Source: Actinopolyspora erythraea (lineage in GTDB: Bacteria; Actinomycetota; Actinomycetes; Mycobacteriales; Pseudonocardiaceae). From it: a DNA stretch of 64,000 bases. Positions 17,274 to 37,215 of this stretch are shown piece by piece. The translations under genes and the position numbers were made by a program. Numbering within the stretch: position 1 is the first letter of the stretch; every line of letters begins with the position of its first letter. The stretch is taken from contig NZ_CP022752.1 in NCBI RefSeq assembly GCF_002263515.1, positions 5,022,001 to 5,086,000 on the forward strand. Reading direction: 5' to 3'. The notes under the pieces are model-generated. The model saw nothing but the letters and a program-made list of their open reading frames with translations, was not told the DNA's origin and did no database searches.

Positions 17274-17312
17274 GACCGGGGCGGGGCTCACGTGCCGGGT
17301 CGGCTACCGGCA

Positions 17313-17400
17313 CGTGAGTCGGCGCCTCGCCGCGTTGCGGGGCACCTCGAGTAGCGGCTACGCCACGTGCCCCGCTGCCTCGCGACGCATCCGACTCACG
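17313..17400 (+). repeat. Structured intergenic element B, copy 1
   Basis: The outer stem pairs CGTGAGTCGG (17313-17322) with CCGACTCACG (17391-17400). An inner stem pairs GCGGGGCAC (17337-17345) with GTGCCCCGC (17367-17375). A conserved 5' side strand (GCGCCTCGCCGCGTT) and 3' side strand (TGCCTCGCGACGCA) lie between the stems, and the tip holds GAGTAGCG with a GTAG/CTAC mini-hairpin. The copy at 35574-35661 has different bases in both stems that still pair. It lies 40 bp after the E2 stop. Confidence 0.7.
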
Positions 17401-17462
17401 CACCGGGGTTCCTCGCGCTGCTTCCCCGCGTGGTCACTACTCGACGGGCGGTCCCGGACAGC

Positions 17463-17484
17463 GGCGATTTCTCGCGAAATCGCC
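17463..17484. repeat. TTTCTCGCGAAA palindromic repeat, copy 1
   Basis: Arms GGCGATTTC (17463-17471) and GAAATCGCC (17476-17484) are separated by TCGC. The same core occurs at 23784-23803 and 56743-56758. The element abuts the left end of structured element A copy 1. Confidence 0.7.
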
Positions 17485-17587
17485 GGGCCTTCCTCGCGAG
17501 GCACTCCCCGGAGACGTGGCGTAGTACCTACTCGATGTCTCCGGACCCCGCAGCGAGGCCCCCGGAGGTTCCGCCACCCGCACCGCC
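17483..17587 (+). repeat. Structured intergenic element A, copy 1
   Basis: Stem P2 is CCGGAGAC (17508-17515) with GTCTCCGG (17537-17544). The apical loop contains the GTAG-TAC-CTAC mini-hairpin. The P1 part nearest the loop is CCTCGC (17492-17497) with GCGAGG (17553-17558), and a further CCGGG/CCCGG pairing follows. The internal loop has GAGG on the 5' side and CCCCGCA on the 3' side. The conserved tail GGTTCCGCCACCCGCACCGC ends 28 bp before the stop of the convergent PPOX gene. It is the most diverged of four copies. Confidence 0.75.
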
Positions 17588-17614
17588 ACGAAAAGCGAGT
17601 CGAGAACCTTCCTG

Positions 17615-18076
17615 TCAGCTGCGGTAGAAGTCGGTGATCCCGGCTCCGGGCCGCCAGGTGCGGATGAGCAGCCGGTCCTCGACCACGCTGGTGCGGGTGA
17701 TCTCGTGCGGCTCCCACCGGAACATGTGGAAGGTGCCGGGCTCGTGCTGGATCTCGACGCCGTAGGCGCGCAGCTCCTCGTCGTCGAGGACCTCCACGGC
17801 ACGCCCGGAGACCTTCACGTCCCCCTCGGTCATGTCGCCTGGGTGGGCGTGCAGCGCGGCGCGCGGGTCACGCCGCAGGTCGAGTGCCTTCAGCGCACGT
17901 GGCATCGAGCCCATGACGAGGTCACCCTCGCGGAACTGCACCTCGGTGCCGCTGACCCGGGGTGATCCGTCTCCGCGCAGTGTCGCCAGGACGTGGTGTT
18001 GATGTGCCTCGAAGCACCGCCTCGCGGCCGCCGCGAGCTCGGGGGCTTCGGTTTCGAACTGTTGCCAATCGGTCAC
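17615..18076 (-). CDS. PPOX-family (pyridoxamine 5'-phosphate oxidase-like) protein
   Basis: 153-residue split-barrel flavin- or F420-binding protein. Typical features are HHVLATLRGDGSPRVSG near residues 24-40, the strand LVMGSMPRALKALDLRRDPRAALHAH's core, in which M-x-R-A-L-K-A-L-D-L binds phosphate, then GDVKVSGRAVEV and a W-rich C-terminus with LLIRTWRPG. The start is GTG 18076 (VTDWQQFE); the open frame extends far upstream without a ribosome-binding site. Related mycobacterial proteins bind F420 or heme, but the cofactor cannot be assigned here. The gene stands alone, convergent to the dehydrogenase operon. Confidence 0.85.
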   Translation of the reverse strand: MTDWQQFETEAPELAAAARRCFEAHQHHVLATLRGDGSPRVSGTEVQFREGDLVMGSMPRALKALDLRRDPRAALHAHPGDMTEGDVKVSGRAVEVLDDEELRAYGVEIQHEPGTFHMFRWEPHEITRTSVVEDRLLIRTWRPGAGITDFYRS

Positions 18077-18224
18077 GGGGCCAACATCGCACGGACCCCC
18101 GACAAAACGGGTCGTCAACGAGCGATCGGTGTGGGTGCCCGCTCGGTGCCGCACCCGTGAGCGAACCGTCTCCGGGAACCCCGGCGGCGGAAACCACGCC
18201 GACGGACCTGCGTCGCCGGGTGGC

Positions 18225-18743: not shown

Positions 18744-19316
18744 CGCTTCGCCCTCCCAATCACTCTCGAAGCGAGCCGGGATCCTGCCGGTGCCTCACGT
18801 CTGACGGAGATCCCGACCTGGTGTACCCGAGCGTGGGCACCGCGAATCCCCGGCGGTGACTCGCGGCCCGCGAACGGCCCGGTGACCGCCCGCGTCAACA
18901 CAACCCGGGGGTACACGATCGCCGTAGGAGAAGCCGATCAATCTCACCTGTTCGGGTGAAGTGCGTACCGGCTTCGCCCAACCGCGACCCACCAGCATTC
19001 CAGAGAAACAAAGTGGAAACAGGCGACAATTCCGAACCGTGGCAAAGGCCACTCGGCGCTTGCGAGCTTGCTCACAGCGTTGTTCCCGCACCCCAAGTCA
19101 CACCTCCCCAGACGGGGGAGTGACGCAGCATACGTAACGAGAAACCGTCCAGTATCCGGGAGCGGGCTGCGCCACGCGGACGGGTACGTCCCCGTTCGGA
19201 CGCACCCGTCCGGCCGGTCGAACGGCTCGACCTTCCGTCACCCACCGGCCGGACGCGAACGACCCGGCCACACCGCGCGCCGGAGGACCTCCGCCGACAG
19301 AACCCCCGGAGAGCGA
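18744..19316. other. Intergenic region with no recognised feature
   Basis: About 570 bp between two minus-strand genes. It must carry the promoter of the disordered-protein gene. A moderately AT-rich part lies near 19000-19035. Open frames here lack ribosome-binding sites and family resemblance. No repeat shared with the rest of the window was seen. Confidence 0.4.
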
Positions 19317-20525
19317 TCAGGGAATGTGCCGCCCCGAGACCGCCCTGGCCACCACCAACTGCTGGATCTGCTCGGTGCCCTCGAAGATGTCGTAGATCTT
19401 GGCGTCCCGGTGCATCCGCTCCACCGGGTACTCCCGGGTGTAGCCGCTGCCGCCCAGGATCTGGATGGCCCGCTCGGTGGCCCAGGTCGCCACCCGGCCC
19501 GCCTTGAGCTTGGACATCGACCCCTCTCCCGAGGTGAACGGTATCTCGTTGCGACCCATCCAGGCTGCCCGCCAGACCAGCATCCTGGCCGCGTCGATCT
19601 CGGTGCGCATGTCGGCCAGCGTGAAGGCGATCCCCTGGTTGTCGATGATGGGGCGTCCGAAGGTCTCCCGCTGCCGCGCGTACTCCAGCGCGTGCTCGTA
19701 GGCCGCCCGTGCGATCCCGATCGCCTGCGAACCGACGGTGGGGCGCGAGAGCTCGAAGGTGCGCATCGCCTGCGAGCTGGACTTGCCGCCCTCCCTGGCG
19801 CGCGCGAGCCGTTCGTCCAGCTTCTCCTTGCCCCCGAGCAGGCACCTGCCCGGGACCCGCACGTCGTCCAGGAAGACGTCGGCGGTGTGCGAGGCCCGCA
19901 GCCCGTGCTTTCGGATCTTGCTAGGCGCGGACAGCCCCGGAGTACCGGGCGGGACCACGAAGGCGGCCTGGCCGCGCGGGCCGAGCTCGGGGTCAACCAC
20001 GGCCTGCACCACGTGCACGTTGGCGATCCCACCGTTGGTCGCCCAGGCCTTGTGCCCGTTGAGCACCCACTCGTCGGTGGCCTCGTCGTAGACCGCGCGG
20101 GTGCGCATCGCGGCCACGTCCGACCCCGCCTCGGGTTCGGAGGAGCAGAACGCGGCCACCTGGGGTTCGTCGACATCGCCGTAGCACTGCGGAACCCACT
20201 CGGCGAGCTGGTCGGGAGTGCCGGAGGAGAAGATCCCGGCCACCGCGAGGGTGGTGCCGAAGATCGCCATGCCGATGCCGCCGTCGCCCCAGAACAGTTC
20301 CTCGTTGGCGATGGGCAGCGAGAGCCCGGTCTCGTCGGCCCAGAACGTCGCCAGCGTCTCGAAGCTGTAGAGGCCGACCTTGGCCGCCTCGGAGATGATC
20401 GGCCAGGGAGTCTCCTCCCGCTCGTCCCACTCCGCCGCCGCGGGGCGGATCTCCTTCTCGGCGAAGCCGTGTAACCAGTCGCGCAGTTCCTGGTGCTCTT
20501 CGGTGAGTTCCAGCGAGAAGCTCAT
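19317..20525 (-). CDS. Acyl-CoA dehydrogenase
   Basis: FAD enzyme that introduces the alpha-beta double bond in acyl-CoA, 402 residues. Domains run in the usual order: N-terminal helices (1-120), middle barrel with AAFCSSEPEAGSDVAAM and KAWATNGG (about 128-160), and C-terminal helices with YARQRETFGRPI, ILGGSGYTREYPVERMHRDAK and the catalytic Glu in IFEGTEQIQQL. The order of the two Glu motifs is that of the fadE type. An SCP2-domain gene lies 151 bp upstream on the same strand, and both are downstream of a divergent TetR gene, suggesting a small lipid or sterol degradation unit. The substrate is unknown. Confidence 0.92.
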   Translation of the reverse strand: MSFSLELTEEHQELRDWLHGFAEKEIRPAAAEWDEREETPWPIISEAAKVGLYSFETLATFWADETGLSLPIANEELFWGDGGIGMAIFGTTLAVAGIFSSGTPDQLAEWVPQCYGDVDEPQVAAFCSSEPEAGSDVAAMRTRAVYDEATDEWVLNGHKAWATNGGIANVHVVQAVVDPELGPRGQAAFVVPPGTPGLSAPSKIRKHGLRASHTADVFLDDVRVPGRCLLGGKEKLDERLARAREGGKSSSQAMRTFELSRPTVGSQAIGIARAAYEHALEYARQRETFGRPIIDNQGIAFTLADMRTEIDAARMLVWRAAWMGRNEIPFTSGEGSMSKLKAGRVATWATERAIQILGGSGYTREYPVERMHRDAKIYDIFEGTEQIQQLVVARAVSGRHIP

Positions 20526-20676
20526 TGGTGTCCTCGGGGTCGGTGATGACGGTCGTCGTACGGAACGGGCCGCTGTCGGCCCGGGGTGTGCGGCGAACCC
20601 CGCCCGTGGGGTAGGCGGTCGGCGCCGCCGTACTCGGGTGTGGCCCGGATTCGCCGTCGGACCGCGTCGCGGGCGG

Positions 20677-21270
20677 TCAGCCCTTGGGGATCTGGAAGAG
20701 CTTGGTCAGCCCGGCCGCGAAGCCCACGTCACCGGCCACCTTGAGCCTGCCCTTCATGAACAGCATGGGGGCCGAGGCGTTGCTCGAAGCGAGCTTGAGC
20801 AGGTCCACCGGGCCGAGCATGACGGTGGCCCTGGGTTCGCGCTCCGGCGTCTTGCTCACCGTGCAGGTGCCACCGGAGAGCACGCACTCGTAGCGCAGCA
20901 CCCCGGACTCGTCGGACTCGTCCCCTTCGGAGGAGCCCTCGGAGGCGGTCCCGCCGAGGTCGATGCGCCAGCGCACCACGGCCTCGGTGCTCTTGGCCTT
21001 GTCCGATCGGTAGTGCTCGCCCATACGGCGGAACAGCTCGTCGAGGATTCGCTCCGCCAGCTCGGGCCGCGCCATGACGTCGCGCAGCTGCTCGTCCGAG
21101 GCCCGGGAGATGAGCCTGGCGAACTGCTCCGGTTCCAGCGAGCTGAGATCGACGTCGGTGTCGGCGGCGGCGAGTTCGGAGGCCGCTTCCAGCAGCCCGA
21201 CGAACTCCTCCCGGCTGACCTGTTTCGGATCGGTGGTCGCCAACGCGGCGATGGGGTCGGAATCCGACAT
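20677..21270 (-). CDS. SCP2 sterol-binding domain protein
   Basis: 197 residues. The N-terminal 80 residues are acidic and helical (EFVGLLEAASELAAADTDVD, then a domain with EQFARLISRASDEQLRDVMA). The C-terminal half is an SCP2-like lipid-binding fold: VVRWRIDLGG, YECVLSGGTCTVS, PRATVMLGPVDLLKLASSNAS and MKGRLKVAGDVGFAAGL. Such domains bind fatty-acyl or sterol ligands. The ATG at 21270 is chosen for the GGAGG six bases upstream; a start at 21282 would destroy that spacing. It is divergent from a TetR regulator, with two palindromic operators between them, so it is probably derepressed by an acyl-CoA or sterol ligand. Confidence 0.88.
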   Translation of the reverse strand: MSDSDPIAALATTDPKQVSREEFVGLLEAASELAAADTDVDLSSLEPEQFARLISRASDEQLRDVMARPELAERILDELFRRMGEHYRSDKAKSTEAVVRWRIDLGGTASEGSSEGDESDESGVLRYECVLSGGTCTVSKTPEREPRATVMLGPVDLLKLASSNASAPMLFMKGRLKVAGDVGFAAGLTKLFQIPKG

Positions 21271-21282
21271 GTTGTCCTCCAT

Positions 21283-21318
21283 TATCTACTCACGAGTAAG
21301 ACTACTCCCGAGTAGATA
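21283..21318. promoter_or_regulatory. Double palindromic operator between SCP2 and TetR genes
   Basis: Two 12-bp palindromes of the form TACTC-NN-GAGTA stand at 21287-21298 (TACTCACGAGTA) and 21303-21314 (TACTCCCGAGTA), 16 bp centre to centre. The flanks TATC and GATA make the whole 36-bp block nearly palindromic. It ends 38 bp before the TetR start and begins 13 bp before the SCP2 start, so a bound regulator would block both promoters. Confidence 0.8.
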
Positions 21319-21356
21319 GACCGGCAATACAACCCCCTGATCGATACTGTTCTACC

Positions 21357-22040
21357 GTGCCAAGAGTGCAGGACGCGAGACACGACCGGACCGAGCAGTC
21401 CGGAAACCCCGCAAAACCACGGTCCAGACGTCTGCCCCGCCAGGTACGCGAGCGCCAGATCCTCGACGCCGCCGTGACCGTGTTCGCCAGGTACGGCTAC
21501 CACGAGGCGGCGATGGACGAGATCTCCGAAGTCGCGGGGATCTCCAAACCCATGATCTACGCCTACCTCGGCGCCAAGGACGAGCTCTTCGTGGCCTGCA
21601 TCCGGCGGGAGGCGAACCGGCTGATCGACTCGATCACCCAGGCGGTCGACGCGGACCTGAACCCGGACGAACAGCTCTGGCGCGGCTTGCACGCCTTCTT
21701 CGAGTACGTCAACGACAACCGAGCCAGCTGGACCGTCCTGCACCGCCAGGCGAGCGTGCAGGGACAGCCCTTCACCGCCGAGCTCTCCGAGTGGCGCGAG
21801 CGCGCGCTCAACCTGGTCGCCGGACTGCTGGCCCGCGCCGGGGGCAGCAGCGAGCAGCCGGTGCAGCTGGAGCAGATGCAACCGTTCGCGGCCGCCCTCG
21901 TGGGGGCGGGCGAGTCCATGCTGGACTGGTGGATAGACCATCCGGAGTACACCGCCGACGCGCTGTCGATGCGCCTGATGAACCTGGTCTGGATGGGGTT
22001 CGGCGACATGGTCCAGGGGCGCCGCTGGAAGCCCTCGTGA
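21357..22040 (+). CDS. TetR-family regulator
   Basis: 227 residues. The N-terminal helix-turn-helix (about residues 30-75) reads RQILDAAVTVFARYGYHEA, then MDEISEVAGISKPMIYAYLG and KDELF. The C-terminal ligand domain has WTVLHRQASV and a WWIDHPEYTADALSMRLMNLV helix. The GTG at 21357 is the first start after the operator; the ribosome-binding site is weak, so the transcript may be short-leadered. It most likely represses itself and the divergent SCP2 gene (and possibly the acyl-CoA dehydrogenase) in the absence of a lipid ligand. Confidence 0.9.
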   Translation: MPRVQDARHDRTEQSGNPAKPRSRRLPRQVRERQILDAAVTVFARYGYHEAAMDEISEVAGISKPMIYAYLGAKDELFVACIRREANRLIDSITQAVDADLNPDEQLWRGLHAFFEYVNDNRASWTVLHRQASVQGQPFTAELSEWRERALNLVAGLLARAGGSSEQPVQLEQMQPFAAALVGAGESMLDWWIDHPEYTADALSMRLMNLVWMGFGDMVQGRRWKPS

Positions 22041-22106
22041 CCGGTCCGCGGGACCGCGGCCCGATCCGCGCGGGATCGACAACGAAACGATCGAACGGAG
22101 GAAATC

Positions 22107-22742
22107 TTGCGTCTGACCCACTACGGGCACGCCTGCGTGCTCGTCGAGACCTCGGCGGCGCGGCTGCTGATCGACCCGGGCGCGTTCTCACACGACTTCG
22201 AGGCGCTGCGTGACCTGGACGCGGTGCTGCTCACCCACCAGCACCACGACCACCTGGACCTGGAACGGCTCCCGGACGTGCTGCGCAACAACCCGAACGC
22301 CCGGCTGGTCGCCGACACCGAGTCCGCCACCGCCCTGTCCGAGAAGGGGATCGAGGCCGAGACGGCCCGGCCCGGCGACGCCTTCGAGCTCGCCGGAGTG
22401 GCGATCAACGTCGTCGGCGGTCAGCACGCCGTGATCCACCCGGACATCCCCCGCATAGCCAACATCGGCTACCTGGTCGAGCACGGCGCCTTCTACCACC
22501 CCGGCGACTCCTTCCACGTCCCCGAGCAGCGGGTGGACGTGCTCGGGCTGCCCACCGGCGCGCCCTGGCTGAAGGCCTCCGAGGCGGTGGACTTCCTGCG
22601 AGCGATGCGGCCCCGCGTGGCGGTACCGATCCACGAGGCCGTGCTGTCCATGCCGCGGATGCACTACGGGCTGTTCGAACGGCTCGGCCCGGAGGGAACC
22701 ACCGTCACCGTGCTCAACCGTGGCGAACCGACCGGGGTGTGA
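22107..22742 (+). CDS. MBL-fold metallo-hydrolase (UlaG/YtnP-like)
   Basis: 211-residue metallo-beta-lactamase-fold hydrolase. The metal motif HxHxDH is HQHHDH at residues 44-49, with further ligands likely in GGQHAVIH (about 111-118), in YHPGDSFHVPE (near 132) and in VPIHEAVL (near 177). Proteins of this short class hydrolyse lactones, phosphodiesters or sulfatides. The start is TTG 22107 behind GGAGG. It lies 66 bp after the TetR gene on the same strand and may be co-transcribed with it. The substrate is not evident. Confidence 0.87.
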   Translation: MRLTHYGHACVLVETSAARLLIDPGAFSHDFEALRDLDAVLLTHQHHDHLDLERLPDVLRNNPNARLVADTESATALSEKGIEAETARPGDAFELAGVAINVVGGQHAVIHPDIPRIANIGYLVEHGAFYHPGDSFHVPEQRVDVLGLPTGAPWLKASEAVDFLRAMRPRVAVPIHEAVLSMPRMHYGLFERLGPEGTTVTVLNRGEPTGV

Positions 22743-22873
22743 CGGCCTCCTCCGGCCCGGCGTTCGGTGTCCCACGGGGCTGCGGGGCGGCTGGGCCGCT
22801 TCCCGCACCCGCGAGCGCCGGGCACGCGGCACCCGCCCGGGAGCGGCCTCGCGGCGAGCGTCGTCGCAGCCGA

Positions 22874-23626
22874 TCAGCTGGTCAGCGGGTCCGGATTCGG
22901 AACACCGCGCACCGCCAGGGCCGGATGCGGCGGCCCCGGCGGAGGCGCGACCAGTTCCGGGTAGGTCGCGGGCAGGGCGCCGTGCGAGAGCGCCAGGTCG
23001 ATCGCGTCGTGGACCGCCGCGCGGCGGGCCGGGCGGTCCAGGTCCCCGGCCGAGACGGCGAACCTGATCAGCCCCGGACCACCTCGGATCTCCCGCTCCG
23101 CCGCCGAGCGCAGCTCCCGGCAGCGAGCGGACTCACCCCGACCCCCGGAGAGGGTCCTCACCCGCGTGCGCAGCACCCGCCCGGTGCGCAGATCCCGCAA
23201 CAGCTCCGGCTCGACGCAGGCGCCGAATCCGGCCGCGCGCAGGGCCGCCAGCGTTCCCGCCGAGGTCCGGCCGCCCAGCGGCGCGAACACCTCGGAACCG
23301 AGACCGGCCGCCTCGAGAACCGCGTTCGCCGCGGTCAACCGCAACCCGGCCTCGTGGCGGGGACGGCGCCGGTCGTCGTGGAACCCACGGGTGCGAGCCG
23401 GACGGGGTGGTTCGAGACCGTGCAGCACCAGCGCGTCGCCCGAGGTGACGCGCTCGCGCAACCAGTCGGTCACGGCGGAGCCGCTCAGCAGCGGGGCGGG
23501 AACGAGCAGCGACAGCCGCACCCGCGAGCGGTCCAGCCGCGCGGCGAAGCGGGCGCAGCGGAGGAGGTCCCGCTCACCGCTCATGTCGTACAACGAGACC
23601 ACGAGCCGTGTACTCACGGTGCTCAT
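22874..23626 (-). CDS. DUF2334 / polysaccharide-deacetylase-like protein
   Basis: 250 residues resembling the DUF2334 branch of the NodB-like deacetylase fold. The pattern is LVVSLYDMSGERDLLRC at the start, then RLSLLVPAPLL, DALVLHGLEPP, EAGLRLTAANAVLEAAGLGSEVF, and a C-terminal RRAAVHDAIDLALSHG helix. The catalytic Asp-Asp of true deacetylases is not conserved in the usual place (SLYDMS), so activity is uncertain. ATG 23626 is chosen because homology begins there; the longer frame upstream covers a palindromic repeat. It is convergent with the metallo-hydrolase gene. No signal peptide was seen, so a cytoplasmic location is likely. Confidence 0.7.
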   Translation of the reverse strand: MSTVSTRLVVSLYDMSGERDLLRCARFAARLDRSRVRLSLLVPAPLLSGSAVTDWLRERVTSGDALVLHGLEPPRPARTRGFHDDRRRPRHEAGLRLTAANAVLEAAGLGSEVFAPLGGRTSAGTLAALRAAGFGACVEPELLRDLRTGRVLRTRVRTLSGGRGESARCRELRSAAEREIRGGPGLIRFAVSAGDLDRPARRAAVHDAIDLALSHGALPATYPELVAPPPGPPHPALAVRGVPNPDPLTS

Positions 23627-23781
23627 GGCGCCAGACCGGACTGTCGTGCCGGTGACCGGCTGATGAAACCGACATGACCTCCCGGGAAAACCCGCGCGGC
23701 GGGACTCGTCGAGCCAACACGCCCGGACGGTGTCCGGTTCTCGCGCTGCCGTTCGGAGCGGCTCGACCGCACCGGCGCGGC

Positions 23782-23804
23782 GTCGATTTCTCGCGAAATC
23801 GCCG
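23782..23804. repeat. TTTCTCGCGAAA palindromic repeat, copy 2
   Basis: Arms CGATTTC (23784-23790) and GAAATCG (23795-23801), loop TCGC, followed by CCGGGCCT exactly as at copy 1. It lies in the 514-bp gap upstream of the DUF2334 gene. A partial left half of element A (GGTTCTCCCGTGCGG) follows at about 23916-23931. Confidence 0.7.
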
Positions 23805-24010
23805 GGCCTCGGCATCGGAGCCGCCGGAGCACCGCTCACGGCCGAAGCCCCTGCCGCTCCCACAGCTCGCCCCCACAGGACGAACCCCGACCACCCTCGT
23901 GGTCAGCACCGCCGCCGGTTCTCCCGTGCGGTCCTCCTCGGCGCGCAGCGCCGAACACCCCCACCCACGCGGGCCGAACTCCTACCACGCCCACACCTGG
24001 CACCGCCGCG

Positions 24011-24120
24011 GGTTCTCACGGGTCGTCTCGCGAGGACGGCCTCGACGTGGCGTAGTACCTACTCGATGTCGAGGCCCCCGCAACGAGACGGCTCGTGAGG
24101 TTCCGCCACCCGCACCGCGA
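24011..24120 (+). repeat. Structured intergenic element A, copy 2
   Basis: Best-formed copy. P1 pairs 24015-24030 with 24084-24099, 16 bp with two G-U pairs and no mismatch. P2 pairs GCCTCGAC (24039-24046) with GTCGAGGC (24068-24075), entirely different bases from the other copies, and is a compensatory set. The apical loop again holds GTAG-TAC-CTAC, and the internal loop has CGAGGACG and CCCCGCAA. The tail GGTTCCGCCACCCGCACCGC follows. It ends about 20 bp before the stop of convergent purC. Confidence 0.85.
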
Positions 24121-24140
24121 GGCAAACCGAGGAAGGATTC

Positions 24141-25025
24141 TCAACCAGGCCAGTTGGTGAGATCACGTCCGGTTATCCGCTCGTACGCCTCCACATAGCG
24201 CGCCCGGGTGGCCGCCACGACCTCCTCGGGCAACGGGGGCGGCGCAGCGTCGGAGGCGCGGTCCCACCCGGACTCCGGCGAGGTCAGCCAGTCGCGCACG
24301 TACTGCTTGTCGAAGGAGGGCTGCGACCTGCCGGGCACGTACTCGTCGGTGGGCCAGTACCGCGAGGAGTCCGGGGTCAGCACCTCGTCGGCGAGCACCA
24401 GCGCGCCGTCGGCGGCGAGGCCGAACTCGAACTTGGTGTCGGCCAGGATCACCCCGCGCGTGCGGGCGTGCTCGGCGGCCCGCTCGTAGATCCGCAGCGT
24501 GGTGTCCCGCAGCCGCTCGGCGCGCTCCCGGCCGACGGTGGCGGCCACCGCCGCCAGGCTCACGTTCTCGTCGTGCTCGCCCAGTTCCGCCTTGGTGGCA
24601 GGGGTGAAGATCGGCTCCGGCAGCCGCGAGGCCTCGGTGAGGCCGTCGGGCAGCGGCACGCCGCAGACCTCGCCGGTCTCGCGGTACTCGGTCAGCCCGG
24701 AACCGCTGAGGTAGCCGCGCGCGACGCACTCGACGGGCAGCATCTCCAGTTTGCGCACCAGCAGCGCCCTGCCGCGCACCTCGTCCGGGATGCGCGGGTC
24801 CTCGGCGGCCACGAAGTGGGAGTCGACCAGATCGCCGAGCAGTTCGAACCAGAACACGCTCATGGCGGTCAGCACCCGGCCCTTGTCCGGGATCGGCGTC
24901 TCCAGCACGTGATCGTAGGCGGAGACCCGGTCGGAGGCGACCATCAGCAGGTGCTCGTCGTCCACCTCGTAGAGCTCGCGGACCTTGCCCGCTGCCACCG
25001 GACGGTATTCGGAAAGCGCGACCAC
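24141..25025 (-). CDS. purC: SAICAR synthetase (phosphoribosylaminoimidazole-succinocarboxamide synthase)
   Basis: Joins CAIR and aspartate with ATP, step eight of de novo purine synthesis. 294 residues. Signatures are [23 protein letters not shown]'s key residues G-K-V-R-x-x-Y near residue 12, [38 protein letters not shown] and the metal-binding [12 protein letters not shown]. The GTG at 25025 is chosen because the family starts here; the upstream frame has no ribosome-binding site. It is divergent from tenA, and element A copy 2 follows it. Purine genes in this window are spread as separate minus-strand units (purB, purC, purD, purA). Confidence 0.95.
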
Positions 25026-25167
25026 GGTTCGGAATTCTGCCTCACCCGAACGGCCGACGGGCCAACGGGCCGCCGTTGCGGCAGAGTACGTGGGGGAGCG
25101 AACCAGCGCGCTCCCGCCGAGCGCGCCTGGCGGGCGGGCCGGGTACGTGACGAGCAGGAGGTCGGGC

Positions 25168-25833
25168 TTGGAGTCGACCGAACACGGCGGGGAGTTCACC
25201 GAGTGGATGCGGCGGCGCAGCGAACCGGACTTCGGGGCCGTGGTCGCCCATCCGTTCACCGACGCCCTGTTCGAGGGGGCGGTTCCCCGCGAGCGGATGC
25301 GCGGCTACCTGGTGCAGGACTACCAGTTCGTGGATCTCTTCCTCGCCCTGCTGGGGGCCGGGATGGCCAGGGCCGACCGGCACGCCTCGCGGCTGCGCAT
25401 CGCGGGCGGCGTCGCGGTGCTCACCGGTGTCGAGGACGACTACTTCCGCCGCGCCTTCGACGCGCTGGAGGTTCCCGAACGGGAGCGGAACGCGCCGGAG
25501 CGGGACGGGGCCACGGTGGCGTTCCGCGAACTGCTGGGTGACACGGCCGAGCGGGGCGGTTACGCCGACGTCCTGACCGTGCTGACCGTGGCCGAGTGGT
25601 CCTACCTGGAGTGGGCCAGTCGCGCCCCGGACCGGTTGCCGGGGGACTTCGTGCAGGCGGAGTGGATCACGCTGCACAACGGCCCCGACTTCGCCGAGTG
25701 GGTGCGCTGGCTGCGCGGCGAGCTGGACCGGGTGGCCGGGGAGCTGGACGAGCGCGAACGGGCGAGGTGCCTGCGGCTGTTCCAGCTCGCCACCCGGTAC
25801 GAGCGGGACTTCTTCGACGCGCACTGGGGTTAG
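25168..25833 (+). CDS. tenA: TenA-family aminopyrimidine aminohydrolase
   Basis: 221-residue all-helical protein of the TenA/thiaminase II family, which salvages degraded thiamine pyrimidine. Family segments are [23 protein letters not shown]'s central residues F-x-x-A-L-x-x-[21 protein letters not shown], and the C-terminal [17 protein letters not shown]. The usual active-site Cys is not obvious: the segment [13 protein letters not shown] holds the conserved Tyr/Glu region, but no CxxY motif is visible, so this may be the TenA_E subclass. The start is TTG 25168 with a perfect AGGAGG six bases upstream. It sits between purC and purB with opposite orientation. Confidence 0.78.
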
Positions 25834-25853
25834 GCCGCCGAGCTGCCCTGCCG

Positions 25854-25890
25854 CGCTGCCCCGCAGCGGTGGTGCGCGGCGATGCCGCGC
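25854..25890. terminator. Bidirectional terminator between tenA and purB
   Basis: Two hairpins in tandem: CGCTGC (25854-25859) with GCAGCG (25863-25868), loop CCC; then GCGCGGC (25874-25880) with GCCGCGC (25884-25890), loop GAT. They lie between the convergent stops of tenA and purB and can serve both strands. Confidence 0.65.
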
Positions 25891-25921
25891 GGAGTCACCA
25901 GCGTCCCCGGCGGAGGGCCCC

Positions 25922-27355
25922 TCAGAGGATCGGCGAGGGCGTGTAGCCCGCCGCCTCCGGGTGGCGGTCGGTGATGTCGCTGATCTCCTCGGTGACCTCG
26001 CGCACCTGCGCCGCGGCGGCGCCGGTGAACTCCAGCGGGTCGGAGAGCAGCTGCCCGAGCCGCTCGCGGTCCAGTGGCAGCCGCTCGTCGGCGGCCAGCC
26101 TGTCGAGCAGGTCGTTGCGCTCCAGCCCGCGCTCACGCATGTCCAGCGCGACCGCGACCGCGTTCTCCTTGATGGCCTCGTGGGCGGTCTCCCTGCCGAC
26201 GCCCTCCCGCACGGCGGCCATGAGCACCTTGGTGGTGGCCAGGAACGGCAGGTAGCGGTCGAGCTCACGGGAGATCACGGCCGGGAAGGCGCCGAACTCG
26301 TCGAGCACGGTCAGCAGCGTCTCCAGCAACCCGTCGAACGCGAAGAACGCGTCGGGCAGCGCCACGCGCCGCACCACCGAGCAGGAGACGTCCCCCTCGT
26401 TCCACTGGTCCCCGGCCAGCTCGCCCGACATCGAGACGTAGCCCCGCAGCACCACCGCGAGGCCGTTGATCCGCTCGCAGGAGCGGGTGTTCATCTTGTG
26501 CGGCATCGCGCTGGAACCGACCTGACCGGGCTTGAAGCCCTCGGTGACCAGCTCCTGCCCGGCCATCAGCCGGACGGTCTTGGCCAGGCTGGAGGGCGCG
26601 GCCGCCAGCTGGGAGAGCGTGGTCAGCACCTCGAAGTCCAGCGAACGCGGGTAGACCTGGCCGACGCTGCCCAGCACCTTGCCGAAACCGAGGTGCCCGG
26701 CGACCCTGCGTTCCAGCTGGGCGAGCTTGTCCCGGTCACCGTCGAGGAGGTCCAGCGCGTCCTGCGAGGTCCCCACTGGTCCCTTGATGCCGCGCAGCGG
26801 GTAGCGCGCCAGCAGATCCTCCAGCCGCCGGAAGGCGACGATCATCTCGTCGGCCGCCGTGGCGAACCGCTTGCCCAGGGTGGTGGCCTGGGCGGCGACG
26901 TTGTGCGAGCGCCCCGCCATGACCAGCTCGCCGTGCTCGGTGGCGAGCTGCCCCAGGCGGGCGAGCACGGCCACGGTGCGGTCGCGCACGTGCTCCAGGC
27001 TGCGACGGATCTGGAGCTGCTCGACGTTCTCGGTCAGATCGCGCGAGGTCATGCCCTTGTGGATCTGCTCGTGCCCGGCGAGCGCGTTGAACTCCTCGAT
27101 GCGGGCCTTGACGTCGTGCCGGGTGACGCGCTCCCGCTCCGCGATGGAGTCGAGGTCGACCCGTTCCAGCACCCGCTCGTAGTCCTCGATCACCCCGTCG
27201 GGGACCTCGACGCCGAGCTCGGCCTGCGCCCGCAGCACCGCCAGCCACAGCTTGCGCTCCAGCACGATCTTGTGCTCCGGCGACCAGAGCCTGACCAGTT
27301 CGGGCGAGGCGTAGCGGGAGGCGAGGGGGTCGGGAATGCTGGGCTTGTCCGTCAC
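25922..27355 (-). CDS. purB: Adenylosuccinate lyase
   Basis: Splits SAICAR and adenylosuccinate to release fumarate, acting twice in purine synthesis. 477 residues. The fumarase-superfamily signature SSAMPHKMN lies near residue 283, preceded by QVGS, and TSRDLTEN and GRSHNVAAQATTLGKRF mark the other active-site segments. The start is taken at GTG 27355 (VTDKPSIP), where homologues begin; a TTG at 27379 is possible. No strong ribosome-binding site is visible, so translation may be leaderless. A truncated sigma-factor gene ends just upstream on the same strand. Confidence 0.95.
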   Translation of the reverse strand: MTDKPSIPDPLASRYASPELVRLWSPEHKIVLERKLWLAVLRAQAELGVEVPDGVIEDYERVLERVDLDSIAERERVTRHDVKARIEEFNALAGHEQIHKGMTSRDLTENVEQLQIRRSLEHVRDRTVAVLARLGQLATEHGELVMAGRSHNVAAQATTLGKRFATAADEMIVAFRRLEDLLARYPLRGIKGPVGTSQDALDLLDGDRDKLAQLERRVAGHLGFGKVLGSVGQVYPRSLDFEVLTTLSQLAAAPSSLAKTVRLMAGQELVTEGFKPGQVGSSAMPHKMNTRSCERINGLAVVLRGYVSMSGELAGDQWNEGDVSCSVVRRVALPDAFFAFDGLLETLLTVLDEFGAFPAVISRELDRYLPFLATTKVLMAAVREGVGRETAHEAIKENAVAVALDMRERGLERNDLLDRLAADERLPLDRERLGQLLSDPLEFTGAAAAQVREVTEEISDITDRHPEAAGYTPSPIL

Positions 27356-27419
27356 GAGTGGTGAGGATACTTCCACCAACGGATGAACGCGCCGGGCGGC
27401 CCCGGTGCGGCCGGGCCGC

Positions 27420-27650
27420 CAACACCGGGCTGTGCCGTTCGTCGAACCAGGCCCGCATCAGCGTTTTGCGCGCGTAGCGCGGGGCTGTGCTCTCGTTGAC
27501 CCGCCACCAAACCCGGTAGAGCTTGACGAACGTGTTCTGCACCAGGTCCTCGGCCAGGTGCCAGTCACCGCACAACAGGTAGGCCGAGCGCCGTAACTGC
27601 GTCGTGTGGGTACGTGCGAAGGTCCGGAACGACTCTTCGCTCTCCCGCAT
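27420..27650 (-). pseudogene. Truncated SigE-family sigma factor (region 2 only)
   Basis: The first 75 residues match the N-terminal domain of SigE-family ECF sigma factors: EESFRTFARTHTTQLRRSAY, LLCGDWHLAEDLVQNTFVKLY, VWWRVNESTAPRYARKTLMR and AWFDERHSP. The intact paralogue at 29710-30228 has the same order with RRPWRRE next. Here homology stops there, and region 4, which binds the -35 element, is missing. The frame runs on into the antisense of purB. The ATG at 27650 with GAGGAG upstream is intact, so the loss is at the 3' end, most likely a deletion that joined it to purB. Confidence 0.7.
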
Positions 27651-27784
27651 TGGCTACACTCCTCTTCCGTGCCGCGCCCCCTGATACGCGCGGAGCCGGG
27701 ACGGGGTTGCACGCGAGTCGGATCGGTCCGGGCCGGGCGGGGGCGGATGCGGACCTCTCGCGGGAACGCCGCTCGGGGTGGGGC

Positions 27785-28369
27785 TCAGAGCAGCTGGGCG
27801 CGCAGCATCCGGCGCGCGGCTCCCCTCGGGTCGGGATCGCTCTCGATGAGGGCGTTGACCACGGCCCCGTCCACCAGCGCGATCAGTTCGAGCATGCGCT
27901 CACGACCGATGTCCATCCCCGAGCGTCGGAAGATCTCGGCCAGCAGCTCGTGCAGCCGCGCGTGCAGATCGCGCATGGACTCGGCGAGGTAGGGGCGTCT
28001 GGGCGATCCCACCAGGCGTTCGTACCGCAGCAGCACGGACTCGGTGCCGCCGTCGCGGGAGTCGGTGCCCAGCAGCATGTCCAGCACCAGCTCGACCACC
28101 TCCTCGCCGCCGGGCGGCTGCTCGGACAGCTCCTCCAGCCTGCGCCTGCCCTCGGCGAGTTCCTCCTCCGCCTCGTGGCGGACCGCCGCGGTGATCAGCT
28201 CCTCCAGCGAGTCGAAGTAGTAGGTGGTGGCGGCCAGCGGCAGTTGGGCGCGTTCGGCCACCGCGCGGTGCCGGATCGCCGCGAAACCGCCCTCGGAGAG
28301 CAGTTCGGCCGCCGCGACCACGAGCAGGTGCCGCCGCCGTTCACCTTTCGGGGTACTCGCCGCCGTCAT
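27785..28369 (-). CDS. TetR-family regulator of the SMR exporter
   Basis: 194 residues. The N-terminal DNA-binding domain reads RRRHLLVVAAAELLSEGGFAA, VAERAQLPLAATTYYF and SLEELITAAVRHEAEEEL. The ligand domain has LLRYERLVGSPRRPYLAESMRDLHARLHEL's core L-L-x-R-Y-E and a GAVVNALIE helix. It is the second gene after an SMR exporter on the same strand (136 bp apart). A 26-bp palindrome in front of the exporter is the likely operator. ATG 28369 has AGGA eight bases upstream; ATG 28387 is an alternative. Confidence 0.88.
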   Translation of the reverse strand: MTAASTPKGERRRHLLVVAAAELLSEGGFAAIRHRAVAERAQLPLAATTYYFDSLEELITAAVRHEAEEELAEGRRRLEELSEQPPGGEEVVELVLDMLLGTDSRDGGTESVLLRYERLVGSPRRPYLAESMRDLHARLHELLAEIFRRSGMDIGRERMLELIALVDGAVVNALIESDPDPRGAARRMLRAQLL

Positions 28370-28505
28370 CGCGTCGATCCTAGCCATCCCGGCCGCCCGG
28401 CTGGGGGATGTGAGGCGACGATCTCGCGGCGTCCCGCCCGCCGATGCTCGCCCGGTCCTCCCGGTGGGGGAGCCACGGGAGGGCGACGGGCAGCCGGGCT
28501 CCGGA

Positions 28506-28829
28506 TCAGTGCCCGACCCCGGCCAGGTTGAGGCCGAGCACCCCGGCGATGATCAGCACGATCGACAGGATCTTGAGCACCGAGACGGCATCGCCGAGCC
28601 AGACCATGCCGATGAGGGCGGTAAGCGCCGCGCCGACGCCCGTCCACACCGCGTAGGCCGGTCCGACCGGCAGCAGGCGCATCGACCACGCCAGCCCCGC
28701 GAAGCTGCCCGTGGCCAGCACCAGGAAGGCCAGGCTGGGCACGAGCCTGCTGAATCCCTCCGAGAGCTTGAGCGAGATCGCCCAGCCCGCTTCGAGCGCT
28801 CCGGAGAACAACAGCACCAGCCAAGCCAT
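28506..28829 (-). CDS. Small multidrug resistance (SMR) exporter
   Basis: 107-residue protein with four membrane segments, the size of EmrE, QacE and Gdx. The essential membrane Glu is in FSGALEAGWAISLK, near residue 13. Other SMR features are LPVGPAYAVWTGVGAALTALIGM and the C-terminal KILSIVLIIAGVLGLNL. The GAG-E-A-G-W-A-I-x-L-K order resembles the Gdx/SugE guanidinium-exporter branch, as does the WTGVGA segment, but no guanidine riboswitch was found upstream. ATG 28829 matches the family start; the GTG at 28838 is closer to the ribosome-binding site GGAAGGA and may also be used. A TetR gene follows. Confidence 0.9.
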   Translation of the reverse strand: MAWLVLLFSGALEAGWAISLKLSEGFSRLVPSLAFLVLATGSFAGLAWSMRLLPVGPAYAVWTGVGAALTALIGMVWLGDAVSVLKILSIVLIIAGVLGLNLAGVGH

Positions 28830-28890
28830 GGTGAGCACGTCCTTCCACGATCGGCGACACGAACGACGCTTCAGGTGAGGAGACTACCCG

Positions 28891-28916
28891 CAAAGTGGCA
28901 CGCCCGTACCACTTTG
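28891..28916. promoter_or_regulatory. Palindromic operator upstream of the SMR exporter
   Basis: Arms CAAAGTGG (28891-28898) and CCACTTTG (28909-28916) with partly symmetrical interior CACGCCCGTA. It lies 62 bp upstream of the exporter start. The TetR protein encoded two genes down is the natural candidate to bind it and repress the exporter until a drug or cation binds. Confidence 0.75.
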
Positions 28917-29015
28917 GTGGGCGAAGCCACCACAGCACGGACATCGTCACCGAACGACACCACGACTCGGCATGACCGGCAGTACGAGAGGCACCGGAGC
29001 GCCTCACTCACCGGC

Positions 29016-29696
29016 TCAGAGTTCGCCCGCCAACCGCTCCGCTATCCGGGGCAACCCGGTCTCGTGGGGCGGTTCCCCCCCGGAGTCGGAGCTACTGCGC
29101 AGGATCAGCCCGCGCCCGCTGCCGGTGCGCACGACCACCTGCACCCCGTCACCCCGGCGCTGCAACTTCGCCTCCCCCTCGGCGGGCACCGAGGAGGCCG
29201 CCCCCAGGATCGCGGTCACGTTGCCGTTGGACCCATCGGCGCGCAGCTGGAAGGAGGCGGTGCGCGTTCCCTCGGGGCACTGCTCGGCCGCCACGGGCAC
29301 GCTGGCCTCGCCGACCTCGGGCAGCTGCTCGGACAGCGCGGTCGCCAGCTCCGGGTCGGGCGGGCCGCAACCGGAGGAGCGGTCCCCCGGCACGGAGAGC
29401 GCGGTGGGCGCGGGCTGCTGGCTACCCACCCGAGGTTCGGGTTCGCTCGCTCCTCCCGAGACCCCCGGAGCGGTGTGCTCGGCCTGGTTGGCCGACTCCG
29501 GGACCAGCCAACCCGTTCCGAAGCCGAGTCCGCCGACCAGCACGGCCAGCACCACCAGGGAGCCACCAGCCGCACCGACCCGACGCCGGGCCGTCACCCG
29601 CCGTGAAGCCCTGGCGATGTCCTCGGCGTCGAATGTCGCTTCGGGGGTGGGGCCCGCCGCGTCGCGGAACAGGTCCGCGAGCTCCTCCTCTCGCAC
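29016..29696 (-). CDS. Membrane protein encoded after a SigE-family sigma factor (putative anti-sigma)
   Basis: 226 residues. A cytoplasmic N-terminal segment of about 50 residues (EEELADLFRDAAG, then DAEDIARASRRVTARRRV) precedes one membrane helix (about 55-78, GAAGGSLVVLAVLVGGLGFG). The extracellular part has no known domain and two Cys residues (CGPPD, EQCPEG) that could form a disulfide. The sigma-factor stop overlaps the ribosome-binding site of this gene; the GTG at 29696 has GGAGG about ten bases upstream. Coupled sigma and membrane-partner genes are typical of sigma/anti-sigma pairs, which is the basis of the assignment. Confidence 0.65.
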   Translation of the reverse strand: MREEELADLFRDAAGPTPEATFDAEDIARASRRVTARRRVGAAGGSLVVLAVLVGGLGFGTGWLVPESANQAEHTAPGVSGGASEPEPRVGSQQPAPTALSVPGDRSSGCGPPDPELATALSEQLPEVGEASVPVAAEQCPEGTRTASFQLRADGSNGNVTAILGAASSVPAEGEAKLQRRGDGVQVVVRTGSGRGLILRSSSDSGGEPPHETGLPRIAERLAGEL

Positions 29697-29709
29697 TTCC
29701 TTCACCTCC

Positions 29710-32354: not shown

Positions 32355-32656
32355 GCTGCTCACCTCACCACGAGTGCACGGCTCCGCCTGCGCACGGGAA
32401 CCGGCCGCCGGCCGGCCACCGCCGATCCGGAAGCCACCTCCTCCAGGTTCCCACAGTTCGGTGGTCGTGCCCCACTCCTCGGGGGAGAACTCGGGGAAAA
32501 TCTCGGGGTGGCCGCGGCGCCGGGAAGCCGGGAGCGTTTGGTCGGCTCTCGACACGCTCGGCCGACAAGGCGCGTGATCGACGTTCCCCGGCACGCGAGC
32601 GCCGAACCCCCACTCACGCCACTCGCACCGCCGCGCTCGCGATCCGATCACCAGCG
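32355..32656. other. Intergenic interval before element A copy 3
   Basis: Holds the promoter region of the small membrane-protein gene. The part at 32475-32515 repeats CTCGGGG three times. The segment around 32595-32625 resembles the DNA upstream of element A copy 2 (GCGCCGAAC and CCCCAC motifs), so the repeat unit may extend left of its hairpin. Confidence 0.35.
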
Positions 32657-32760
32657 GGTTCTCCGGTGCTGCTCTCGCGAGGACGCCGGAGACGTCGTGT
32701 AGTTACTACCCGATGTCTCCGGCCCCGCAGCGAGAGCCGTGCGGGAGGTTCCGCCACAGC
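32657..32760 (+). repeat. Structured intergenic element A, copy 3
   Basis: P1 pairs 32661-32678 with 32730-32747, 18 positions with two G-U pairs and two mismatches. P2 pairs CCGGAGAC (32686-32693) with GTCTCCGG (32715-32722). The apical mini-hairpin is GTAG-TTA-CTAC. The internal loop is GAGGACG opposite CCCCGCA. The tail GGTTCCGCCA follows. It ends about 40 bp before the stop of convergent purD. Confidence 0.85.
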
Positions 32761-32793
32761 GCCATCCGGGCACAGCGCATCGAAGGACAGTTC

Positions 32794-34077
32794 CTAGTTC
32801 CGGGCGAAGTCGCCGTCGCCGGGGAGGGCGACCTCACCGCGCGCGGCGCGCGCCGCGATGTCGGTGCGGTAGTGCGCCCCGGGCAGGTGCACCCCGTCCA
32901 CGCGCCGGTAGACCTCCTGCCGCGCCGACTCCAGGTCCTCCCCGGTGGCGACCACGGACAGCACGCGACCTCCCGCCGAGAGCACCGCCCCGTCGGTTTC
33001 GCGCCTGCGGGTGCCGGAGTGCAGCACGCCGGGCCCGTCGCTGCCGCCGATGACGTCGTCGGTGCGCGGCCTGCCCGGGTACCCCTCGGCGGCCAGGATC
33101 ACGGTCACGGCGGCGCCGGGCTCCCACTCGGGCTCTGGCGCCTCGGCCAGCTCCCCGTTGGCGACCGCCGTGAGCAGGCTCGACAGCGGAGTGCGGAGCA
33201 TGGCCAGCACCGCCTGCGTCTCGGGGTCGCCGAAGCGGCAGTTGAACTCGATGACCTGCGGTCCGTCCGAGGTCAGCGCCAACCCGGCGTAGAGCAGCCC
33301 GGAGTAGGGCGTGCCGCGCCGCGCGAGCTCCTCGACGGTGGGGCGCACGACGGTGTCGACGACCTGGTCGACCATTCCCTCCGGCGCCCAGGGCAGCGGG
33401 GCGTAGGCCCCCATGCCGCCGGTGTTGGGGCCCGCGTCGCCGTCACCGACGCGCTTGAAGTCCTGCGCGGGCAGCAGCGGACGCACCGTGGTGCCGTCGA
33501 CCAGACACAGCAGCGAGGCCTCTGGGCCGTCGAGGAACGACTCCAGCAGCACCGGGTGGCCGTCCTCCAGCAGCTTCAGGGCGTGGGCACGGGCGGCGTC
33601 GAAGTCGCTGGTGACCAGCACCCCCTTGCCCCCGGCCAGCCCGTCGTCCTTGACCACCCAGGTGGGGCCGAAGTTGACCAGCGCGGCGTCCAGCTTCGCC
33701 GGGTTGTCCACGGTCTCGCTGTGCGCGGTCGGCACACCGGCCGAGAGCATGACGTCCTTGGCGAAGGCCTTCGAGCCCTCGATGCGTGCCGCCGCCCTGG
33801 AGGGGCCGAAGCAGGGCACACCGGCCGCCCGAACGGCGTCGGCGGCGCCCGCCACCAGGGGGGTCTCCGGCCCGAAGACCACCAGGTCCGCCCGCCACTT
33901 CAGGGCGAGTTCGGCCATCTCATCGGGGGCGGCCACGTCCACCGAGTACGACTCGGCGATCATCGCGGTGCCCGCGTTGCCGGGAGCGCACGCCAGGGCG
34001 GTCACCTCCGGGTCGCGGGAGAGCGCCCGCAGGATCGCGTGTTCCCTGCCGCCTGCACCAATCACGAGGATGCGCAC
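32794..34077 (-). CDS. purD: Phosphoribosylamine-glycine ligase (GAR synthetase)
   Basis: ATP-grasp enzyme of step two of purine synthesis, 427 residues. N-domain: [13 protein letters not shown] at the start and [17 protein letters not shown]-grasp core: [18 protein letters not shown] near residue 140, then [30 protein letters not shown] and [16 protein letters not shown], the metal-binding signature. The start is GTG 34077, where the nucleotide-binding motif begins; the frame continues upstream without homology. It is divergent from a secreted phosphodiesterase gene. Element A copy 3 follows the stop. Confidence 0.95.
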
Positions 34078-35661: not shown

Positions 35662-35790
35662 ACGCCGGAGTCCCGCGCGCCGCGACACGCGGGGTTCCGC
35701 GACCGACGTCCCCGGCAGGGCCGACACCTCAGCTACGCCAAGCGGCGCCAGCCGCTTACGGCCACGCCCGCCCCACCGGCACCGCCGCGG

Positions 35791-35892
35791 GTTCTCCCGT
35801 GCGGCTCTCGCGAGGACGGCCGGAGACGTTGTGTGTACCTACCCGATGTCTCCGGCACCCGCAGCGAGAGCCGTGCGAGAGGTTCCGCCAAG
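35791..35892 (+). repeat. Structured intergenic element A, copy 4
   Basis: P1 pairs 35794-35811 with 35864-35881, 18 positions with two G-U pairs and one mismatch. P2 pairs CCGGAGAC (35820-35827) with GTCTCCGG (35848-35855). The apical loop is one base shorter than in other copies (GTGTACCTAC). The internal loop is GAGGACGG opposite CACCCGCA. The tail GGTTCCGCCA ends about 40 bp before the stop of convergent purA. Confidence 0.85.
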
Positions 35893-35928
35893 CGACCAGC
35901 TACGCGGGTCGACCAACCGGAAACGTAG

Positions 35929-37215
35929 TCACGCCATCCGGTGACGCACGATGGTCTGATCCCGCCCCGGGCCGACCCCGATCGCCGAGATCCGCGCCTG
36001 CGCCAGCTCCTCCAACCGCTCGATGTAGGCGCGGGCGTTGGCGGGCAGTTCCTCGAAGGTGCGCGCCCCGCTGATGTCCTCACGCCAGCCGGGCATCTCC
36101 TCGTAGACCGGCACGGCGTGGTGCACGCCGGTCTGGGTCATCGGCATCTCGGAGGTGCGCATCCCGTCGACGTCGTAGGCCACGCAGATCGGCACCGTCT
36201 CCAGTCCGGACAGCACGTCCAGCTTGGTCAGGAAGTAGTCGGTGATGCCGTTGACCCTGGTCGCGTAGCGCGCGATCACCGCGTCGAACCAACCGGTCCG
36301 CCGGTCCCTTCCGGTGTTCACGCCGACCTCACCGCCGACCTTGCGCAGGTTCTCGCCCGCCTCGTCGGTGAGCTCGGTGGGGAACGGCCCCGAGCCGACC
36401 CGCGTGGTGTAGGCCTTGAGGATGCCGATCACCGAGTCGATGCGGCTCGGCCCGATCCCCGCCCCGGCGCAGGCGCCGCCCGCCGTGGGGTTGGAGGAGG
36501 TCACGAACGGGTAGGTGCCGTGGTCGACGTCGAGCAGCGTGCCCTGCGAGCCTTCGAGCAGCACCGTCTCGTTCCTGCTCAGCGCCTGGTCCAGCATGAG
36601 CTTGGTCTCGGCCACCCGGCCCGCGAACCGCTCGGCCTGCGCCAGCACCGTGTCGACGACCTCCTCCGGGTCCATCGCGCGCCGGTTGTAGACCTTGACC
36701 AGCACCTGGTTCTTGTACTCCAGGGCCGCCTCGACCTTCTGCCGCAGGATCTTCTCGTCCAGCACGTCCTGCGCCCGCACGCCGACCCGGGCGACCTTGT
36801 CCTGGTAGCAGGGACCGATTCCCCGGCCGGTGGTGCCGATGCGCTTCTTACCGAGGTAGCGCTCGGTGACGCGGTCCATGGCCACGTGGTAGGGCATCAC
36901 CAGGTGCGCGTCGGCCGACAGCGAGAGCTTGGAGGTGTCCACCCCGCGCGACTCCAGGCCGTCCAGCTCCTCCAGCAGGGCCTCCGGGCTGACCACCACA
37001 CCGTTGCCGATCACGTTGTGCACCTCGGGGCTGAGGATCCCCGAGGGGATCAGCTTCAGCGCGAAGTCCTGGCCGTCCGGCAACACCACCGTGTGACCCG
37101 CGTTGTTGCCACCCTGATAGCGGACAACCCACTGCGCCTGCTCGCCGAGCAGGTCGGTCGCCTTACCCTTTCCCTCGTCACCCCACTGGGCGCCGATCAA
37201 CACGATTGCCGGCAT
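35929..37215 (-). CDS. purA: Adenylosuccinate synthetase
   Basis: GTP-dependent ligase that makes adenylosuccinate from IMP and aspartate, 428 residues. Signatures: [15 protein letters not shown] with the P-loop at residues 7-20, [12 protein letters not shown], the catalytic [39 protein letters not shown], and the GTP-binding TKLDVLSG near the end. The ATG at 37215 follows GGAG. It is divergent from an uncharacterised gene; a divergent conserved gene is found at the same place in mycobacteria. Element A copy 4 lies beyond the stop. Confidence 0.97.

Follow-up and report, generated by a model that had tools for sequence, protein, structure and literature searches.

The window analysed here, a stretch of 64,000 nucleotides, spans bases 5,022,001-5,086,000 of the closed 5,243,930-bp chromosome of Actinopolyspora erythraea and carries several copies of a structured intergenic repeat, element A, next to the stop codons of genes on the opposite strand (Table 1). 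The four copies that a first-pass annotation had located from the letters alone are present where it placed them, and three of them lie behind pur genes, as assigned by Pfam. Compared with dinucleotide shuffles, the plus strand of copies 1-4 folds far better than expected (z=-4.4, -7.0, -6.5 and -7.6, against -2.4, -2.0, -3.9 and -3.3 for the minus strand), and the core pattern has two matches in the window versus none in 100 shuffles. The inner stem P2 pairs as CCGGAGAC/GTCTCCGG in copies 1, 3 and 4 and as GCCTCGAC/GTCGAGGC in copy 2, as had been described. The internal loop said to be common to all four is not complete in copy 1 (17483-17587), the weakest of the four, which is without the GAGGACG side, reads GAGGCACTCC at this point and has an atypical left arm.

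Table 1. Element A copies in the window and the features beside them (R1, covariance model described in the text)
Feature	Position	Strand	Basis
Fifth copy, hybrid of element A apex and element B outer stem	17294..17413	-	R1 50.7 bits
Copy 1 core hairpin, atypical left arm	17467..17587	+	R1 71.3 bits
TGA stop codon of PNPOx-domain gene, facing copy 1	17615..17617	-	Open reading frame and Pfam PF01243
Small hairpin TCGGCGCGCAGCGCCGA left of copy 2 (hairpin 1 module)	23938..23954	+	Sequence; recurs at many copies
Copy 2 core hairpin	24001..24119	+	R1 119.4 bits; z -7.0
Tail between copy 2 core and purC stop codon	24120..24140	+	Weakly conserved among copies
TGA stop codon of purC-like gene (SAICAR synthetase)	24141..24143	-	Open reading frame, PF01259
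Copy 3 core hairpin	32647..32767	+	R1 115.3 bits
TAG stop codon of purD-like gene	32794..32796	-	PF01071, PF02844, PF02843
Hairpin 1 AAGCGGCGCCAGCCGCTT left of copy 4	35740..35757	+	Sequence; module common to other genera
Copy 4 core hairpin	35780..35901	+	R1 115.4 bits
TGA stop codon of purA-like gene	35929..35931	-	PF00709

A fifth copy faces the stop codon of a plus-strand lipoyl acyltransferase gene that ends at 17273 (PF00198), and both ends of a convergent gene pair can carry an element (17294-17413 and 17467-17587). The outer stem of this hybrid belongs to a second palindromic family at gene ends, element B, of the form GGCACGTGAGTCGGCGCC...GTAG...CTAC..., which occurs in the window at about 35571-35669 and 17294-17413 and elsewhere at loci L067 and L068; elements A and B have the tail letters CGTAGCTGGTTGC and the GTAG/CTAC apex in common. 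The left flanks of Actinopolyspora copies are built of exchangeable modules, namely small hairpins, 24-bp units (GCCGAACTCCnACCACnCnCGCAG) and a separate dispersed palindrome (GGCGATTTCTCGCGAAATCGCC, for example at 17463-17484 of the window), and a hairpin of the form AAGCGGCGnAGCCGCTT or TCAGCGGCGGAGCCGCTGA is common left of copies in other genera.

An Rfam search of the window gave no match above threshold; the best hit below it, at copy 2, was Guanidine-II (13.3 bits, E=2.2, gathering threshold 32). Intrinsic terminators were considered and rejected, no U-tract terminator being found at the copies; the two terminator-like sites in 17000-36400 both lie at 26469-26489.

Distribution, fold and placement of element A

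An initial DNA search returned 42 matches in the A. erythraea genome, and a covariance model built from 29 aligned copies (R1; E<=0.01) returned 143, the weakest at 31 bits, or at least 140 without three opposite-strand duplicates (150 candidates scored), so that the description of a four-copy element could not be kept. With R1, 16 of 61 genomes were positive, this one included, all from the same family; they comprise all ten genomes of the genus Actinopolyspora (G006 with 3 matches only) and representatives of six other genera. A second model (R2), made from 89 matches of other genera and applied to the best 12 candidates per genome, placed the element in 80 of 297 genomes and in 15 of the 46 genera of the family. 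Plasmid, phage and viral collections searched with the core or its pattern yielded no match, and the family was not recognised in the literature searched, which consisted of open-licence papers. Among the 140 matches listed for A. erythraea no copy lies between 1,478,000 and 2,708,900 (1.23 Mb), and a similar gap is seen at 2.04-2.77 Mb among the 93 matches listed for G022, a genome of another genus; these copy-free stretches are possibly the non-core region.

In larger alignments the stems vary with pairing kept and the loops stay fixed, as the annotation had proposed from four copies. Across 111 aligned copies of A. erythraea, 95.4% of the cells pair and both sides have changed in 110 cells, compared with 22.7 +- 4.2 after shuffling; across 89 copies from other genera, 95.6% pair and both sides have changed in 508 cells against 153 (each alignment includes one opposite-strand duplicate). 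Covariation, the absence of which from a larger alignment had been named as grounds for giving up the selected fold, thus exceeds shuffles in both sets, although the cells count sequences rather than events and swapping among sites inflates the counts. The loops and some of the wobble pairs are nearly fixed across genera, among them GUU/GUU near the base and a wobble near the apex.

The annotation had also used G-U pairs to assign the functional RNA to the plus strand, an argument that depends on five positions at which wobble pairs are common or fixed. When these five are excluded, the 111 copies of A. erythraea show no such asymmetry (49 GU versus 59 AC), whereas pairs without a regular wobble in 88 copies from other genera (the duplicate dropped) do (87 versus 28). 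Such sequence comparison speaks for the plus strand, whether RNA or single-stranded DNA, outside the genus and not inside it.

Neighbouring genes were predicted by a simple caller based on codon usage, for which the fetched DNA served as training set, and 122 of the 140 copies had enough context. None of the 122 lies within a called gene. The right-hand gene is antisense, its stop codon facing the element, in 102 of them, and this stop codon lies within 45 bp of the model end in 88 of the 122 (median 26 bp for the 102); the left neighbour is unbiased (64 plus, 56 minus, two without). The same arrangement recurs elsewhere, with a facing stop codon within 60 bp for 17 of 21 copies in G021, 33 of 49 in G022 and 12 of 16 in other genera. 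The genes that bear the element differ mostly between genera: only one of 32 stop-facing genes in G022 and one of 17 in G021 are in common with A. erythraea, and one further pair is shared between G022 and G021 and one between G034 and G022. A polarity with respect to replication was considered and set aside, since the excess of copies directed against the fork (83 of 122) is explained by gene direction and the copies without a stop-facing right neighbour divide 11 to 9; fork polarity is stronger in G022 (75 of the 93 matches listed) and G021 (25 of the 27 listed), figures from which gene direction is not separated out.

Conserved positions and exchanged sequences

Six congeners were compared with A. 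erythraea at ten of its sites, which fall into three regions, with coordinates read by hand; three more (G001, G002 and G007), for which only the first region was seen, stand outside the site count. The element occupies nine of the ten sites in G009 and in G004, eight in G008, seven in G003, one in G005 and none in G006. Matching DNA is mostly 93-97% identical to A. erythraea in G008 and 82-92% in G004 and G009. Copy 3, at purD, is lost or decayed in G008, a near relative. The orthologous copies are mostly no more alike than paralogous ones: the G008 ortholog is the best match among the 122 A. erythraea copies at two of eight sites and ranks 8th to 76th at the remaining ones, and in G009 the ortholog ranks first at none of nine. 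Over five congeners, mean ortholog identity is 0.74-0.83 for the core versus 0.48-0.65 for the left flank.

Where orthologous copies differ on both sides of a pair, pairing is kept in 67 cases and not kept in four. Because variants are swapped among sites, the double changes are in part transfers of variants that already matched, and not compensations that arose independently. In G000 and G008 the flanks of site 69a are nearly identical except for one missing 24-bp unit on the left, and the core between them differs, a pattern that looks like gene conversion. A segment of about 390 bp between convergent stop codons is inverted in G001 relative to G002 or G005, with collinear genes and an element near each end; this is the purA intergenic region (L131/L132 against L133 and L134). 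At the purC site of G009 (L126), an insertion of about 1.4 kb lies left of the element and, as judged by eye, carries a putative TnpB-type IS gene.

Units with IS5-type ends in related genomes

In two genomes of the same family, G248 and G307, copies selected for their identical scores show element A within near-identical units of about 205-240 bp with unrelated flanks. The unit ends in G248 are inverted copies of AGCCTGTCTTTGAAC, usually with CTNAG before them, and the 15-base end sequence occurs 181 times (<=1 mismatch) versus once for a reversed control. Twenty G248 loci, mostly chosen for paired ends, were fetched; two of them (L385, L386) showed one end only. In the other 18, which hold 19 innermost units, the same TNA stands on both sides of 14 units, the IS being two of these, and TNA is found at 33 of the 38 ends. 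Unit lengths range from 141 to 338 bp, apart from two units 962-963 bp long, which code for an IS5-family transposase of 277 aa (NF033580, 199.5 bits against a cut-off of 110; PF13340 and PF01609). The units and the 962-bp IS share (A/T)GCCTGTCTTTGA ends and nearly identical inverted repeats; both IS copies sit inside element A copies, one of them at the CTGAG of the right arm, and among the transposase loci of the genome eight have the same score and one more comes close. NF033580 has matches in all eight genomes tested, above the cut-off in seven, which is weak evidence as IS5 elements are common.

Three of the innermost G248 units, of 141-144 bp, have the ends without a detected core, and these coreless units are probably further MITEs of the same IS. 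Units of 141-162 bp with the same IS5-type ends and no detected element A core were seen at L380-L383.

At 13 G248 loci with a unit of 200-300 bp, 16 alternative end pairs were read; the right neighbour is antisense in 14 of the 15 rows that have one, at a distance of 1-67 bp in 13 of these rows. The core-to-stop distance, given for four of five copies, is 27, 34, 52 and 27 in G248 versus a median of 26 in A. erythraea. At four loci (L349, L353, L418 and L420) the gene-side TNA is itself the stop codon of the facing gene; a duplicated stop codon was not seen at these four, where the best-matching unit has TGA/TCA three times and TCT/TCA once. In G021, five of the 21 copies have a right end that agrees with the G248 repeat in at least 12 of 16 positions, two of these ends lying directly after the stop codon. 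Agreement on both sides, in at least 9 of 12 positions, is seen for five of the 21; by eye, three of these (L322, L324 and L326) are flanked by TCA on either side, and the right-hand TCA is the stop codon. The three near-identical copies in G307 have CTAG or TTAG at their ends and do not follow the stop-codon rule. In sum, the data show only weakly that the stop codon itself is duplicated.

The G248 type of end is not found beside the copies in A. erythraea. In a profile test that returned 12-16 of 16 matching positions for nine G248 copies as a positive control, none of the 122 A. erythraea copies reached 12 of 16 on either side, and 49 copies in G022 and 16 in other genera were likewise negative. 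A. erythraea has an IS5-family IS of its own (L397), which ends in GAGCCTGTTCCTGAACT, is flanked by TAA on each side and contains an open transposase frame, and G022 also has one with TNA-type flanks; beside the 122 copies, ends of the resident A. erythraea IS matched at best 12 of 16 positions, with means equal to those of shuffles. An exact-substring test, which is weak for degenerate repeats, gave no signal of terminal repeats or of target duplication in A. erythraea and other genomes. As their ends are undetectable, the A. erythraea copies are therefore old or moved otherwise, and we infer that those in the window are relics of an IS5-type MITE.

Origin and possible role of the element

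Because transposon-like units are present in a related genome, the most fitting reading of the copies is that of old mobile repeats in which the hairpin has been kept unusually well, and not that of four separate regulatory RNAs. We consider it probable that element A belongs to a family of IS5-type MITEs for which the TNA target makes stop codons safe landing sites, and of which the Actinopolyspora copies are old and converted. Element A would be the core of short non-autonomous transposable elements, the complete unit of about 205-240 bp having a short inverted repeat at each end and, between the two, hairpin 1, then the 100-nt core hairpin and a tail. The transposase of full-length IS5-family elements with nearly the same ends would move such a unit into T-N-A and duplicate the three bases. 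The stop codons TGA and TAA fit this target. Insertion at them would do no harm as long as the gene still has a stop after the duplication, and targeting of this kind would bring the unit's right end to lie next to the stop, which agrees with the placement observed. The Actinopolyspora insertions would be old ones that presumably entered by the route seen in G248, with the stop codon as the duplicated target; their inverted repeats would have decayed while the copies stayed at the same gene ends across species, and ectopic gene conversion would have overwritten the cores repeatedly with those of other copies, leaving uniform loops and stems exchanged as matched pairs. The annotation had named recent mobile-element insertions without a transcript as grounds against its reading; a mobile origin is indeed likely, but the copies here are not recent. 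Beside the negative end and duplication results, the differing TNA at the G248 stop codons and the G307 copies, further points count against the preferred reading: a palindromic TNA target does not explain the fixed orientation, a plain MITE would not require a core that is conserved across 15 genera with differing terminal repeats, and a copy-free stretch of 1.23 Mb is unlike what is expected of most mobile elements.

A reading compatible with the MITE origin, and one we regard as possible though tentative, is that the hairpin is a gene-end device useful to the host, in which plus-strand RNA would stop or process antisense transcripts coming from downstream; selection would keep one oriented folded element per gene end, and mobility would only supply them. 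Such an antisense barrier is the most tempting function because the plus strand is what these transcripts would contain. The placement rule holds in A. erythraea, G021, G022 and other genera (88/122, 17/21, 33/49 and 12/16), elements can occur at both ends of convergent pairs, nine of ten sites are retained in both G004 and G009, cores are better kept than left flanks, and the excess of GU over AC outside the genus points the same way. RNA-seq data from S. erythraea are reported to show an enrichment of antisense transcription at gene 3' ends (PMC3610266), which is compatible with such a device and not specific to it. Yet different genera carry the element at different genes, G008 has lost its purD copy or keeps it in decayed form, G006 has only three matches, the copies are without a U-tract terminator, and A. 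erythraea gives no strand signal outside the wobble sites. Those same balanced GU and AC counts are what is expected if a double-stranded palindrome is maintained, and orthologs differ by matched stems (67 against 4); both would fit correction of a quasipalindrome, in which template switching within the hairpin matches the arms and covariation does not reflect selection. We think this unlikely as an account of the family, since it would erase loops and unpaired or wobble positions such as GUU/GUU and the near-apex wobble, which are nearly fixed across genera.

Two further explanations fare much worse. Short imperfect palindromes with strand polarity at gene ends recall REP-like repeats moved as single-stranded hairpins by a Y1 transposase (RAYT/TnpA), and A. 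erythraea has two Y1_Tnp genes; these IS200/IS605-like TnpA loci (L031 and L032, at 4,019,197 and 4,468,733) have no element nearby, however, and G002, G008 and G022 hold many copies and no Y1_Tnp match. Movement by Y1-type enzymes is not known to make target duplications, and TNA duplications are present in G248. The distribution of Y1_Tnp relative to the copies speaks against such a mover, and the explanation as a whole is very improbable. The pur genes at three of the four window copies and the covariation could suggest a cis-regulatory RNA of purine and other core genes that is tied to its loci and inherited only vertically, but with 140 matches genome-wide, little sharing of genes between genera and orthologs that mostly resemble each other no more than paralogs do, this is hardly credible; what is seen in place of a set of locus-specific regulatory elements is a family of dispersed repeats that is mobile in a relative.

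Among known systems, IS5-family MITEs are the closest, being short, with ends near-identical to those of a co-resident IS, 3-bp TNA duplications, many copies and nesting, as in G248; the relevant IS5 subgroup is presumably IS1031-like, with its TNA target. Element A differs from them by its 100-nt core hairpin with kept loops and covarying stems, by different terminal repeats across genera and by stop-codon sites with a fixed orientation, and in Actinopolyspora it keeps the core while the ends are undetectable. ERIC/IRU and BOX repeats are long imperfect intergenic palindromes with modular flanks, which element A resembles by description, and it has in addition an identified target and a candidate mover. 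REP/BIME repeats with RAYT are gene-end palindromes with strand polarity; element A is alike in its polarity at gene ends and does not depend on Y1_Tnp. Integron attC sites are imperfect palindromes beside stop codons with a strand preference, three traits that element A also has, although by eye it is without an attC-type R-box pair and stands as single copies behind many genes.

On a more far-reaching reading, gene ends in these actinobacteria could be slots for an exchangeable, oriented hairpin cassette, a functional core that different IS5-type ends have carried and that is kept to guard 3' ends, for example against antisense read-through, with the slots evolving in concert by conversion, replacement and inversion of whole cassettes; judged from sequence comparison, this is speculative.

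Taken together, the family suggests a concrete reason why repeats pile up behind genes in GC-rich genomes, in that a transposase targeting TNA finds stop codons, where the gene can stay intact. It also provides a natural system for the concerted evolution of short repeats, in which position is kept and sequence is swapped, and a warning for RNA discovery that covariation within a repeat family can reflect the exchange of matched variants. If the hairpin acts on antisense transcripts, it would represent a transposon-derived gene-end device in 15 genera.
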